Part shown: piece after piece, positions 16,486 through 24,253 of the stretch | Layout: each line of letters opens with the position of its first letter | How positions within the stretch are numbered: the stretch's first letter is position 1 | Origin: a virus | Strand: one strand, 5' to 3' | Virus record (IMG/VR): IMGVR_UViG_3300007540_000101 | Location: 1-24,253 of that record | DNA: 24,253 bases | The notes under the pieces: generated by a model | Databases searched by the model: none | Told to the model about the DNA's origin: nothing | What the model saw: only the letters and a program-made list of their open reading frames with translations | Translations under genes and position numbers: made by a program

Positions 16486-18198
16486 ATGGAAGATAAAAAG
16501 GTAGTAGTAGATTTAAGCGCACTTTACATTGCTATGTGCTACGCGTACACTTGTTTAGACTTTGAAAAGAAGGTAGTTTTAAACGGGTACAAAACTTTAT
16601 CAAGCCTTTACACTGAGGAAGCAGGAGAGCAATTCCCTGAAGAAATACTTGAGCCACTCCCTTTAGAAGATATCCACTCTGGCATCTACTTTAGCTTAGT
16701 TGATTGCATTGAAACCTCTTTTGACTTTAAAGAACTAATGCGAGTAGATAGAAAAGCTTATGGGTATGTTAAACGTTTAATCGATCACATTGAGAAACAA
16801 GGCAAAAAGCAGGAAAAAGCAGACAATGAAAAACTTCGTATAGAAGACGCTAAAACTTTGTCTCTTGCAGATGCTGCTAAACTTGTCCAAGACTTTATGA
16901 ATGGTTCTTGGATTAAAACTTTAATTGTACAACGTGCAGGCATAGCAAGGAATTCGTCTAGCAGAGTGCCTGAAACTTTTGGCATTTATGATAAGGCTAA
17001 AAATACTTGCACTTGTGTACTTGATGATGACAAACCGTTTGCTTACATGAATCGAACTAATTCAATATCTCACTGGTTCGCATATGAGCTTGGTAACTAT
17101 TCACAATACTTAAAAGGAAAAGCAGGAGGGCAAGATGAGGACGAAGAAGAAGTTTACTCTATGCTATCCTCTATCCTTGAGGGTGTAGTGAATACAGGTA
17201 GTAATGCTTCTGAAAGAGATTGGGCAGAAGGTAAGGTATGTGCTGTGACTCTAAAAGGTGTTAACCTGCCCGGTGTTGCATTGCGTGTTGACCCTTTGGC
17301 TTTCTCTCTTGCTGAACTACGTTACATGGCACAACAGATTCAAGCTCTAAATGAAATAGCAGAGAAAGCAGAAGGTATGTGTGTAACCCCTAACGAAATT
17401 TACTATGGTAAAAATGTTAGAGTTGATCTCACTGAGACACACGCCGCTTTTACTACTTCACAAAAGTTTGAACGTTATGATTTGTCATTAGTTAACATTG
17501 ATAGACCAGCAGAAGCTTTAGTTGAGCAGATAAAAGGTATCCTAGCGAAACCTGAAGATGAGCGACCCGATCTTATTACTGGCCTGTTATACGGTGTTCC
17601 CGGTTCAGGTAAATCTATGTTGGCAAATTACTTAGGTCAACAACTAGGTGTTCCTGTACTTAAGAAAACTTATGCAGATCTTCAATCTATGTATGTAGGT
17701 GAAGGTGAAAAGAATCTGAAGGAAGCTTTCCAAGAAGCGGAGATCAAGCAGGCTATTTTGTTAATCGATGAAATTGATTCTATTGCTGGCAACCGTCAGA
17801 ATGCAGACAAGAACTACCAGAAAACCTTTACTAATCAGCTACTTACTGAGCTTGATAACTTTAAAGGCATATTCTTAGCTACCTCTAACTTTATGGAGGG
17901 TCTTGATTCCGCTATCCTGAGACGTTTATTCTTGAAAATTAAATTTGATTTTCTCACAGAAGAACAACAGCAATCTGCGTTTGAGTTGTACTTCCCTAAG
18001 TTAAAGCGTAGCAAATTAGGTCAGATACCTTACTTGACCCCCGGTGACTTCCGTGCAGTACGTGAAGCGGCACAATTTGATGTTGAGAAACTTAATGTCA
18101 AACGTGTTCGTGAACTATTGCAAAAAGAAGTTGATTTAAAGAAATTAACTCTGCGAGAAGTACTTAAAGCAGAAAAGACTGTAGGATACCACTTATGA
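16486..18198 (+). CDS. Classical-clade AAA+ ATPase with a long unique N-terminal region, 570 aa
   Basis: The C-terminal part is a complete AAA+ module of the classical (FtsH/Cdc48/Vps4-type) clade: Walker A GVPGSGKS (370-377), a pore-loop-like MYVGEGEKN (402-410), Walker B LLIDEID (Asp428, Glu429), sensor 1 ATSN (Asn468) and Arg479/Arg480 in ILRRL as arginine-finger candidates. The first 340 residues match no family that I know and include a Glu/Lys-rich segment (about 98-122). The pore-loop pattern suggests translocation or remodelling of a protein substrate rather than DNA unwinding. It stands between primase-helicase and dCMP deaminase and overlaps the latter by four bases. No protease domain is attached. 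Confidence 0.85.
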   Translation: MEDKKVVVDLSALYIAMCYAYTCLDFEKKVVLNGYKTLSSLYTEEAGEQFPEEILEPLPLEDIHSGIYFSLVDCIETSFDFKELMRVDRKAYGYVKRLIDHIEKQGKKQEKADNEKLRIEDAKTLSLADAAKLVQDFMNGSWIKTLIVQRAGIARNSSSRVPETFGIYDKAKNTCTCVLDDDKPFAYMNRTNSISHWFAYELGNYSQYLKGKAGGQDEDEEEVYSMLSSILEGVVNTGSNASERDWAEGKVCAVTLKGVNLPGVALRVDPLAFSLAELRYMAQQIQALNEIAEKAEGMCVTPNEIYYGKNVRVDLTETHAAFTTSQKFERYDLSLVNIDRPAEALVEQIKGILAKPEDERPDLITGLLYGVPGSGKSMLANYLGQQLGVPVLKKTYADLQSMYVGEGEKNLKEAFQEAEIKQAILLIDEIDSIAGNRQNADKNYQKTFTNQLLTELDNFKGIFLATSNFMEGLDSAILRRLFLKIKFDFLTEEQQQSAFELYFPKLKRSKLGQIPYLTPGDFRAVREAAQFDVEKLNVKRVRELLQKEVDLKKLTLREVLKAEKTVGYHL

Positions 18199-21927: not shown

Positions 21928-21961
21928 ACCCCTTTGACTCTTTAGTCATTGGGGTTTTTTT
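21928..21961 (+). terminator. Intrinsic terminator after the RNR block
   Basis: ACCCC (21928-21932) pairs with GGGGT (21951-21955). Inside, GACT (21936-21939) pairs with AGTC (21944-21947) around the loop CTTT, with a small internal loop. Seven T residues follow directly (21955-21961). This is the clearest intrinsic terminator of the window, lying 11 bases after the membrane-protein stop and before the MoxR/VWA unit. Confidence 0.85.
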
Positions 21962-22018
21962 AAGCAGATCAGCGCAATGCTAGATGTTTAAATTTCATAC
22001 TACTAAACTTAATAATAC

Positions 22019-22042: not shown

Positions 22043-23071
22043 ATGAAACTTTCACAAGCAAAAACAATCATCAAAGCAATGATCCAACACAACCTTAACC
22101 TGAAGCCCGGTGCCTCTAATGCAGAGTTCTTGATCCCTATGTTGTGGTCTCAGCCCGGCGAAGGTAAAACTACTATGGTTGAAGACCTTGCAAAAGAGCT
22201 TTCACTTGAAGTAGAAACAGTTATTGTAGCTCAGTTTGACTATGCTGAGTTAGGTGGCTTCCCTAAATTATCTGAAGACGGAGAAGAGTACAACCGTGCG
22301 CGTCCGTTCTTCTTACCACGAGAAGGCTGTGCAGACACTCTTGTATTCTTAGACGAACTACCTCAAGCAGTAACCGCTAACCAAAACGTTATGGCTCAGT
22401 TAGTTAACGAACGCCGTATTGGTGAGCACGTATTACCCTCTAACGTTACTTTAGTTGGTGCCGGTAACCCTATGACCTCACGAGCGGGTACCTCACAGAT
22501 GCCTTCACACCTTAAAGACCGATTGACTCACTTGGATATCGAGACTGATCACGAAGGTTTCCGTACTTATGCCTTGTCTAAAGGTTTCCTCCCTGAAGTA
22601 ACAGGCTTTATTAATGACCGCCCTGAGTGGTTGCAGAAGTTTGACCCTTCAGCTAATGCATCTCCTACTCCACGTTCGTGGGAAAGAGCTAACACAATTC
22701 TACGCCTTGGGCTAAATTCAAGCGAAGAACGTCATGCTCTTAAAGGTCAAATTGGTGAAGCCGCTTTGACTGACTTTGTTGGATACCTGCGTATCTGGCG
22801 TGATCTTCCTTCTGCTGAGTCTATCTTTGATATGCCTGAGACAGCTGAGATTCCCGGATCACCTGATATCCTGTATGCCCTATGCTCTAACTTGGCACAC
22901 AAAGTAACTTCTGAAACTGCTGAAGCGCTAGTTACGTTTGTTAAGCGTTTCCCTTCTAAAGAGTTTGCCGCCTTCTGTATGCGCGATACTCTATCTCGTA
23001 ACCCTTCTCTCAAGAAGGATAAGAATGTTGCTGGCTGGGTTGTAACTGAAGGTAGAGACTTGTTGCTATAA
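22043..23071 (+). CDS. MoxR-family AAA+ ATPase, 342 aa
   Basis: This is an AAA+ ATPase of the MoxR/helix-2-insert type that acts as a chaperone with VWA-domain partners. It shows Walker A SQPGEGKTT (Lys42), the FDYAELGGFPK block after it, Walker B LVFLDELPQA (Asp104, Glu105), NERRIGEH and sensor 1 GAGNPM, where bacterial MoxR proteins have ATQNP. SHLKDRLTHLDIE (about residues 155-167) holds the arginine-finger region. The gene begins a new transcription unit after the terminator, with a conserved leader, and is followed 17 bases later by the VWA/HExxH gene. The pairing is typical of MoxR-VWA systems such as RavA-ViaA and CbbQ-CbbO. The target of this phage pair is unknown. Confidence 0.9.
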   Translation: MKLSQAKTIIKAMIQHNLNLKPGASNAEFLIPMLWSQPGEGKTTMVEDLAKELSLEVETVIVAQFDYAELGGFPKLSEDGEEYNRARPFFLPREGCADTLVFLDELPQAVTANQNVMAQLVNERRIGEHVLPSNVTLVGAGNPMTSRAGTSQMPSHLKDRLTHLDIETDHEGFRTYALSKGFLPEVTGFINDRPEWLQKFDPSANASPTPRSWERANTILRLGLNSSEERHALKGQIGEAALTDFVGYLRIWRDLPSAESIFDMPETAEIPGSPDILYALCSNLAHKVTSETAEALVTFVKRFPSKEFAAFCMRDTLSRNPSLKKDKNVAGWVVTEGRDLLL

Positions 23072-23088
23072 ATAATAGGAGAAGTACA

Positions 23089-24253
23089 ATGGAAGCACAA
23101 TTAAAGATAAGCAGAGCGGTAACGAACCTTGCGTTCAATAACCCGTTCTTTGGCTCTTGCCTTATGCAATTAAAGCTTGAGGAAAGAGCAGATGTCCCTA
23201 CTATGGCTACTAATGGTACTCATGTATACTGGGGGCGAGACTTTGTAGACAGCATCTCTGAAGAGGAGGTGCGGTTTGTATTGGCACACGAGGTAATGCA
23301 CGTTATATTAAAGCATTGCCAAAAGTTCGAGGGTAAAGACCCTCAGTTATGTAATGTTGCTATGGACTATGTTATTAACCCCCAGCTACTTGATGCTGGA
23401 TTTAGCATGGTAGAAGGTGCATTGTATGACAAGTCAGGTAAGTTTCACAATATGGCTTGGGAAGAAGTTTATCGTTGTTTAGATGACCTTAAGAATGACA
23501 GGGAACCCCCTGTTGATCTTTCCCTAGGGAATAAAAATGATATCAAAAATGATATTGCTAACTCTACTGACCACTTAGAGCAATCAGCAAGTGGTTCAGC
23601 TTCAGAGATAGCTGACGCGTCAGATAAGATCGACGATATGGTAATCCGTGCCGCTACTGCTCAAGAGATGAGCGGTAAGGGCGGGATGCCTCATGGAGTT
23701 CGAGAGCGTATTAAATCTATACGTGAACACCAAGTAAACTGGGCTGAAAAGTTAGAATTACTGGTAAAAGCTAAATACCCAGAAGATTTTACTTTTGCAA
23801 AACCTAACCGTAGGCACCTTGGTTCTGGCTTATACCTTCCTACTATGGATGGCCACAAGGCAGGCCCGATTGCTATTGCAGTGGACACGAGCGGTTCTGT
23901 TTCTACAGAAGAACTAACTTTATTTATTTCAGAAATTAATAATATAATCAATGACATACGACCAGAAAAGGTTTATCTCATGTCAGCAGATTGTCAAGTA
24001 GCCGATGTAGTTGAATACGATTCAGATCATTACTTCGAAGACTTTAATGCTGTTGGAGGAGGGGGTACTTCTTTTGTTCCTGTGTTTGATCATGTAGAAA
24101 AAGAGAACTTACAAATAGATCAGCTGATTTACTTCTCTGATATGTATGTATATGATTCTGATTTCCCTGAGAAACACCCTGATTATCCTGTTATATTCTG
24201 TAGTTCTCGTAACGAGCGTGAAGTACCGTTCGGCGACTTAATCAAAATAAAGG
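23089..24253 (+). CDS. VWA-domain protein with N-terminal HExxH metallopeptidase-like domain, 3' partial
   Basis: At least 388 residues are encoded before the window ends, with no stop. The N-terminal domain has LAHEVMHVILKH (His67, Glu68, His71), and AMDYVINPQLL near residue 90 may add the third ligand, as in the DUF2201 metallopeptidase-like domain. A low-complexity acidic linker (about 140-190) follows. The C-terminal domain is VWA-like with a full MIDAS: VDTSGS (Asp266, Ser268, Ser270), GGGGTS (Thr327) and FSDMY (Asp351). The two-domain layout, HExxH then VWA, is known from bacterial DUF2201 proteins next to MoxR ATPases. The AGGAG ribosome binding site and 17-base gap place it in an operon with the ATPase. 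Confidence 0.88.
   Translation, partial: MEAQLKISRAVTNLAFNNPFFGSCLMQLKLEERADVPTMATNGTHVYWGRDFVDSISEEEVRFVLAHEVMHVILKHCQKFEGKDPQLCNVAMDYVINPQLLDAGFSMVEGALYDKSGKFHNMAWEEVYRCLDDLKNDREPPVDLSLGNKNDIKNDIANSTDHLEQSASGSASEIADASDKIDDMVIRAATAQEMSGKGGMPHGVRERIKSIREHQVNWAEKLELLVKAKYPEDFTFAKPNRRHLGSGLYLPTMDGHKAGPIAIAVDTSGSVSTEELTLFISEINNIINDIRPEKVYLMSADCQVADVVEYDSDHYFEDFNAVGGGGTSFVPVFDHVEKENLQIDQLIYFSDMYVYDSDFPEKHPDYPVIFCSSRNEREVPFGDLIKIK

Follow-up and report, generated by a model that had tools for sequence, protein, structure and literature searches.

Site conservation and co-inheritance of a phage MoxR ATPase and a metallopeptidase-like VWA protein, with a linked third gene family downstream

The closest described relatives of the gene pair analysed here are found in other phages. 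The genes gp24 and gp25 of phage N4 (Schitoviridae) are listed as core genes of N4-like phages in PMC4193335, and for the MoxR and vWA/metallopeptidase pair of the group 2.2 jumbo phages, a chaperone and peptidase acting in virion assembly and structural-protein processing was proposed in 2021 (PMC7824862). The sequence-only reading of this locus had taken combined unfolding and cleavage to be new for phage pairs; given these two publications, that claim is not supported, and both the pair and its unfold-and-cut reading are already known. We found no report of a biochemical or genetic test of the pair, N4 gp24/gp25 included, and no earlier description of the third gene family, the variant in phage OLIVR1 or the quantified co-inheritance and site conservation presented below. 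Mechanistically, the best-described comparison is NorQ/NorD, in which a finger of NorD that a single strand links to the MIDAS reaches into the pore of NorQ, the C-terminus of the NorD VWA domain binds the NorQ post-sensor-1 loop, and the NorD MIDAS is required for the target but not for NorQ binding (PMC13036017, PMC9976466).

The window, that is, the whole stretch of DNA analysed (24,253 bases), is an IMG/VR fragment of a marine T7-like phage. Its plus strand encodes a single-subunit RNA polymerase, DNA polymerase A, a primase-helicase and both RNR chains, followed at the end by the pair, the second gene of which is cut by the 3' end of the window:

22043–23071, plus strand: MoxR-type AAA+ ATPase, 342 amino acids (N4 gp24 family, PHROG 1297)
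23089–24253, plus strand: DUF2201_N plus DUF2201 (metallopeptidase-like plus VWA) protein, 388 of 389 codons (N4 gp25 family, PHROG 1314)

The MoxR gene comes first and its stop lies 17 bases before the start of the VWA partner, so that the gap and coordinates first read from the sequence were confirmed. The contig IMGVR 3300013010_001958 (L003/L004), which is 99.9% identical to the window over 12.2 kb, completes the VWA gene at 389 amino acids, and the window therefore misses only one residue and the stop codon. Both genes are real and, apart from this cut, intact.

The assignment of the two proteins to the MoxR and DUF2201/VWA families was borne out by Pfam and PHROG profile matches. The partner matched DUF2201_N, described in Pfam as a "putative metallopeptidase", with 123.7 bits (cut-off 23.2) and DUF2201, described as "VWA-like", with 77.6 bits (cut-off 26.4), and both domains were matched by all seven members of an alignment of close relatives; its residues 2–388 matched PHROG 1314 (E = 6e-100). 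The ATPase passed the Pfam AAA model (27.1 bits, cut-off 21.2) and missed AAA_3 by sequence alone (20.5 versus 27 bits), and its residues 31–334 matched the phage ATPase family phrog_1297 (E = 5.7e-72). All marks of the AAA+ family are present in it, namely Walker A and B, the sensor 1 Asn, the Arg finger, the helix-2 insert and the AAA lid. PHROG 1314 carries the label "HNH endonuclease", which we rejected for the partner, in which no Pfam HNH match was detected. Many public phage records carry the same label for this metallopeptidase–VWA family, apparently a misannotation that has spread. Elsewhere in the window, a second AAA+ ATPase of 570 amino acids (16486–18198), located between the primase-helicase and a dCMP deaminase, matches IetA defence ATPase models and phrog_10401, and a 133-amino-acid protein (1714–2115) with an HExxH-like AHELTH motif weakly matches DUF6782, a putative metallopeptidase.

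N4 gp24/gp25 share with the pair both domains, the MoxR-then-VWA order, the conserved residues and a near-adjacent arrangement; however, their identity to it is 26–30%, the N4 genome is without the third gene, and the window phage is T7-like and encodes RNR. The group 2.2 jumbo phage pair has the same domain architecture (PMC7824862) but belongs to a different type of phage, and searches of PA5oct, RaK2 and phage G gave no third gene. The likeness to NorQ/NorD and CbbQ/CbbO is a works-like relation: they provide the best match to the MoxR fold and possess a MIDAS-bearing VWA domain with a hairpin preceding MIDAS strand 1, whereas no metallopeptidase domain has been described in them and they act on nitric oxide reductase and Rubisco. 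Midasin (Rea1/MDN1), ranked first among the PDB profile matches of the ATPase, likewise has a substrate-gripping MIDAS domain, but it is a single giant eukaryotic ribosome-assembly protein, whereas the phage has two small proteins and a zincin-type domain. Around the HExxH, the partner resembles the minimal metallopeptidases selecase and MJ1213 in local sequence and fold, although these are short stand-alone proteins lacking a VWA domain. In bacteria, genes encoding DUF2201_N plus DUF2201 (PF13203) had an adjoining MoxR gene in 10 of 13 loci; unlike in the phage, the HExxH Glu was missing in three of the 13 (HVILH, HTVLH and HAYLH, read by pattern rather than aligned), and a sample of 300 genomes from one phylum contained such genes in only 19.

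Each gene of the pair was found in about 790 phage records. Carriers of the pair include the N4-like phages, Vequintavirinae, PA5oct, RaK2, Bacillus phage G, cyanophage S-TIM61, Thermus phage phiFa, Planktothrix phage Pag-Yong1 and Roseobacter phage CRP-7. Loci were gathered twice, in MoxR-anchored and in VWA-anchored searches, and the collection was scanned with closer alignments, the wide alignment A1 being too diverse. Both genes were present in 162 loci, and every single-gene locus ended before the partner could appear: MoxR-only loci extended at most 231 bases beyond MoxR, and VWA-only loci at most 1.85 kb upstream. Separate inheritance of the two genes, which the sequence-only reading had named as a refuting observation, was thus not seen in any locus long enough to show both, all single-gene loci being contig ends; Pag-Yong1, an apparent MoxR-only case, proved to have its VWA gene 2.2 kb further on. 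After the removal of identical proteins, 112 pairs remained, and MoxR was upstream on the same strand in 109 of them. Two pairs, in the Vequintavirinae phages naswa and GAP31, were on opposite strands, and the one reversed gene order fits the bacterial locus L184. Seven genes separate MoxR from VWA in CRP-7 and about 4.4 kb does so in phage G, indicating that the linkage survives separation. The distance matrices of MoxR and VWA were correlated at r = 0.94 (n = 60 loci), compared with 0.81–0.82 for either gene versus the primase (about 30 loci), and whole-genome relatedness accounts for part of this agreement. In Vibrio phage VCO139 (L044:700-3411), an Rfam group I intron (709–953) and HNH genes are present and one HNH gene divides the MoxR gene into two pieces, so that the pair locus seems to be a target of homing elements.

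The site residues of both proteins were examined in 29 diverse representatives, 20–67% identical to the VWA protein of the window, and in a larger set of 151 rows, in which the 29 recur under locus ids:

22148–22171, plus strand: Walker A, SQPGEGKT (Lys42); G41 and K42 in 138 of 138 readable rows
22340–22357, plus strand: Walker B, ending in FLDE (D104, E105); E105 in 139 of 139 readable rows, D104 missing in OLIVR1 alone
22520–22522, plus strand: Arg160, candidate arginine finger; 143 of 143 readable rows
23287–23301, plus strand: HExxH (H67, E68, H71); 28 of 29 phage representatives and 148–149 of 151 rows of the larger set
23314–23379, plus strand: H76, N89, D93 and N97, candidate further metal-site residues; 27–29 of 29 representatives
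23884–23898, plus strand: MIDAS DTSGS (D266, S268, S270); 143 of 143 readable rows and 29 of 29 representatives
24067–24069, plus strand: MIDAS T327; 141 of 141 readable rows
24139–24141, plus strand: MIDAS D351; 140 of 140 readable rows

The HExxH and the intact MIDAS first noticed in one partner protein are both present, as H67-E68-x-x-H71 and D266-T-S-G-S270, and the loss of these sites in relatives, a second way in which the early reading could have failed, was not seen in either set apart from one phage exception for HExxH. These columns stand out against a mean column identity of 32%, most columns of the alignment being variable, which means that the site residues are not a matter of chance. 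In the ATPase, the sensor Asn142 was invariant in the readable rows, as were the Walker Lys, the Walker B Glu and Arg160, the last of which is a candidate arginine finger, a role taken from the AAA+ family. In the N-terminal part of the partner, A91 and N97 were found in all 29 representatives, N89 and D93 in 28 each and H76 in 27, and D93 or H76 is a possible third metal ligand beside the HExxH.

The exception is Agrobacterium phage OLIVR1, the only phage whose sequence does not retain the HExxH Glu. Its partner (L045:2399-4685) carries H67S, E68L, H71K, N89Q and D93S together with an intact MIDAS, and its MoxR carries D104S (Walker B), A140D and R211G. The loss of these partner residues as a block suggests that HExxH, N89 and D93 form one metal site, and also that the MIDAS can be retained without it. 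Since OLIVR1 keeps the pair without the metal site, and some bacterial relatives are without the Glu, peptidase activity appears dispensable in some members.

AlphaFold2 models were built from own-locus sequences (52 for the VWA partner and 46 for MoxR) and reached a pLDDT of 86.3 and pTM of 0.62 for the partner and a pLDDT of 90.7 for MoxR. In Foldseek searches, the partner model matched VWA domains, among them human MDN1-MIDAS and NorD, while the match of its N-terminal part was to selecase; the query-normalised TM-scores were low (0.16–0.28). The best folds for the MoxR model were NorQ and CbbQ, and the best PDB sequence match of its profile was midasin; the MoxR model has strands 74–76 and 83–85 after a short helix (67–71). 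One element of the partner model recalls the NorD finger:

23770–23862, plus strand: beta-hairpin before MIDAS strand 1 (model strands 228–239 and 251–257), tip PNRR; candidate pore finger

P239 and R241 of this hairpin were each conserved in 125 of 144 sequences and P251 in 138 of 144, with the tip pattern PNR(R/K), and by its likeness to NorD the hairpin is a candidate pore finger. A PxG motif is conserved near the C-terminus of the partner.

Upstream, the pair is set apart from the RNR-side genes by a predicted terminator:

21928–21962, plus strand: intrinsic terminator, hairpin at 21928–21955 plus T run; fold -15.2 kcal/mol, z -3.68

The position of this hairpin is kept, with an altered stem, in the relatives L005, L006 and L009. 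Downstream, in the sister contig L003, a 369-amino-acid gene starts three bases after the VWA stop and is followed by seven more genes on the same strand, including those for a ClpP-like protease and an endolysin, and no good terminator candidate was found just 3' of the pair. With so short a gap and no terminator found, the pair stands first in a longer string of genes. Its description as a transcription unit of its own therefore holds at the upstream side, where the position of the terminator is conserved, but not at the downstream side, where the string continues. No promoter was identified before MoxR: AGCGCAATGCT, which follows the terminator, is partly conserved in relatives but was rejected as a phage promoter, its repeats in the window not exceeding chance, and a repeat search yielded no clear promoter family. 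A 38-base intergenic direct repeat with 95% identity (286–323 and 2397–2434) is possibly a promoter.

The gene immediately downstream (L003:11174-12283) lies just beyond the end of the window, and its product had no match in Pfam or PHROGs at E < 0.01. The profiles of the genes following VWA in different phage groups nevertheless matched one another (hhalign probability 90–94%, E of about 1e-6 to 1e-7). In single-pass profile searches of the loci with VWA, all matches to the third gene were downstream, from an overlap with the VWA end to 3.5 kb away, and reversed decoys gave no matches. The third gene was present in 68 of the 97 protein-unique VWA loci in which the sequence continues for at least 1.3 kb beyond VWA, and in 41 of these 68 it comes immediately after VWA. 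These 68 all belong to the 77 marine-type loci, from uncultured contigs or CRP-7; the gene was found in none of the 19 named phages (N4-like, jumbo and other), nor in the one bacterial locus. A search of the whole records of 15 of these named phages also gave no convincing third gene, the best match (E = 0.0045) being far from the pair in naswa. Conversely, when loci were collected by way of the third gene, VWA was present in every one that extends more than 2.3 kb upstream. The contigs with the third gene are mutually related, so synteny may account for part of this linkage. The gene evolves fast, with 26–27% identity where VWA has 53–67%, and a C-terminal motif resembling ESLLRRRIK occurs in several subgroups of its product. 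These patterns make the product a candidate third component of the machine.

Taken together, the pair is best explained as a phage-encoded MoxR/VWA remodelling complex with a side domain that probably cuts or metal-loads the target, a reading to which we assign a probability of roughly 0.5. That the pair is a remodelling complex at all, as had been suggested from the sequence, is highly probable, being supported by the co-inheritance, the site conservation and the fold matches to NorQ/CbbQ and NorD/MDN1. By analogy with NorQ/NorD and midasin, the ATPase would assemble as a hexamer on which the VWA partner would dock with its pre-MIDAS hairpin in the pore; the MIDAS metal would grip an acidic residue of the target, and ATP hydrolysis would twist or pull it. 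Less surely, the N-terminal zincin domain beside the ring may bind zinc and clip the exposed target, or may instead load or hold a metal; we slightly favour an active peptidase. The target would most likely be a phage protein produced at a later stage of infection, and here too we lean only a little towards a phage over a host protein. A second structural module lies near the gp24/gp25 homologues (PMC4193335), and the PA5oct MoxR entry carries the note ESI-MS/MS. In this lineage, the third gene product is a candidate target or adaptor. For marine phages of the present type, a more speculative extension is that the pair and the third protein (250–385 amino acids) form a three-gene machine, in which the third protein would be the target or adaptor that is held by the MIDAS, unfolded by the ATPase and cut by the HExxH domain.

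In the excerpt of PMC4193335, the transcripts of N4 gp24/gp25 belong to the middle rather than the late class, which counts against the late phage target, and the RPP1 virion proteins named there do not include their homologues. Both points fit a complex that strips or cleaves a host transcription, envelope or defence assembly in mid-infection, as do the location of the pair among nucleotide-metabolism genes in many phages (N4, Axy04, N38, RG-2014 and OLIVR1) and the fast evolution of the third gene, as expected of a host-facing protein. However, hosts as different as E. coli, Thermus, cyanobacteria and Bacillus argue for a conserved phage-side target, and neither protein matched a defence family; we regard such a takeover tool as possible but rather unlikely. 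As the PADLOC models matched neither protein, membership of a known anti-phage or counter-defence family was also rejected, and the link to anti-phage systems drawn at the outset is not supported. A similarly doubtful alternative is a chaperone without proteolysis, in which the HExxH would hold a structural or delivered metal and the target would be folded or metal-loaded, as nitric oxide reductase is by NorQ/NorD. Known MoxR/VWA pairs often serve metal insertion or enzyme activation (PMC13036017, PMC9976466), and some bacterial DUF2201_N members have the two His without the Glu; yet this Glu, superfluous for mere metal holding, is kept in all phages but one, and the N-terminal domain resembles the metallopeptidase selecase in fold. 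Nor is the upstream di-metal RNR, the metalloenzyme nearest to the pair, a general partner, since CRP-7, N4, SBP1, phiFa, LIT1 and EE36phi1 carry the pair without the RNR small chain, and RNR maturation was accordingly rejected as a general role.

Cleavage by a separate phage protease fed by the pair is very improbable. A CLP_protease gene does lie within the same gene string, a few genes downstream, in close relatives (L003:13001-13570), but it is confined to these, none having been found in N4, CRP-7, LIT1, SBP1, phiFa, EE36phi1 or S-TIM61, and by PHROGs it is nearer to head maturation proteases; ClpP was therefore rejected as a general partner, being absent from most of the pair-bearing phages searched. 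The idea that the genes are decayed or neutral passengers could draw on OLIVR1, in which several site residues are lost in both proteins, but it is contradicted by the conservation of the functional residues at 17–30% overall identity and by co-occurrence that is universal among the assessable loci, and we consider it extremely improbable. The remodelling complex with a cutting or metal-loading side domain remains our preferred reading.

The N4 genes gp24 and gp25 belong to the core of a large phage family and also turn up in giant phages, cyanophages and Thermus phages. For these genes, the present analysis supplies residues to target by mutation, a variant found in nature (OLIVR1) in which the metal site and the MIDAS are uncoupled, and a third gene product as a candidate component. 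Should the HExxH domain cut the target, the pair would unfold and cut proteins with ATP as a machine of a build other than that of Clp or FtsH, and if the three-gene arrangement is true, it would be a self-contained ATP-driven processing machine of the phage, with gripping and cleaving combined in a single protein.
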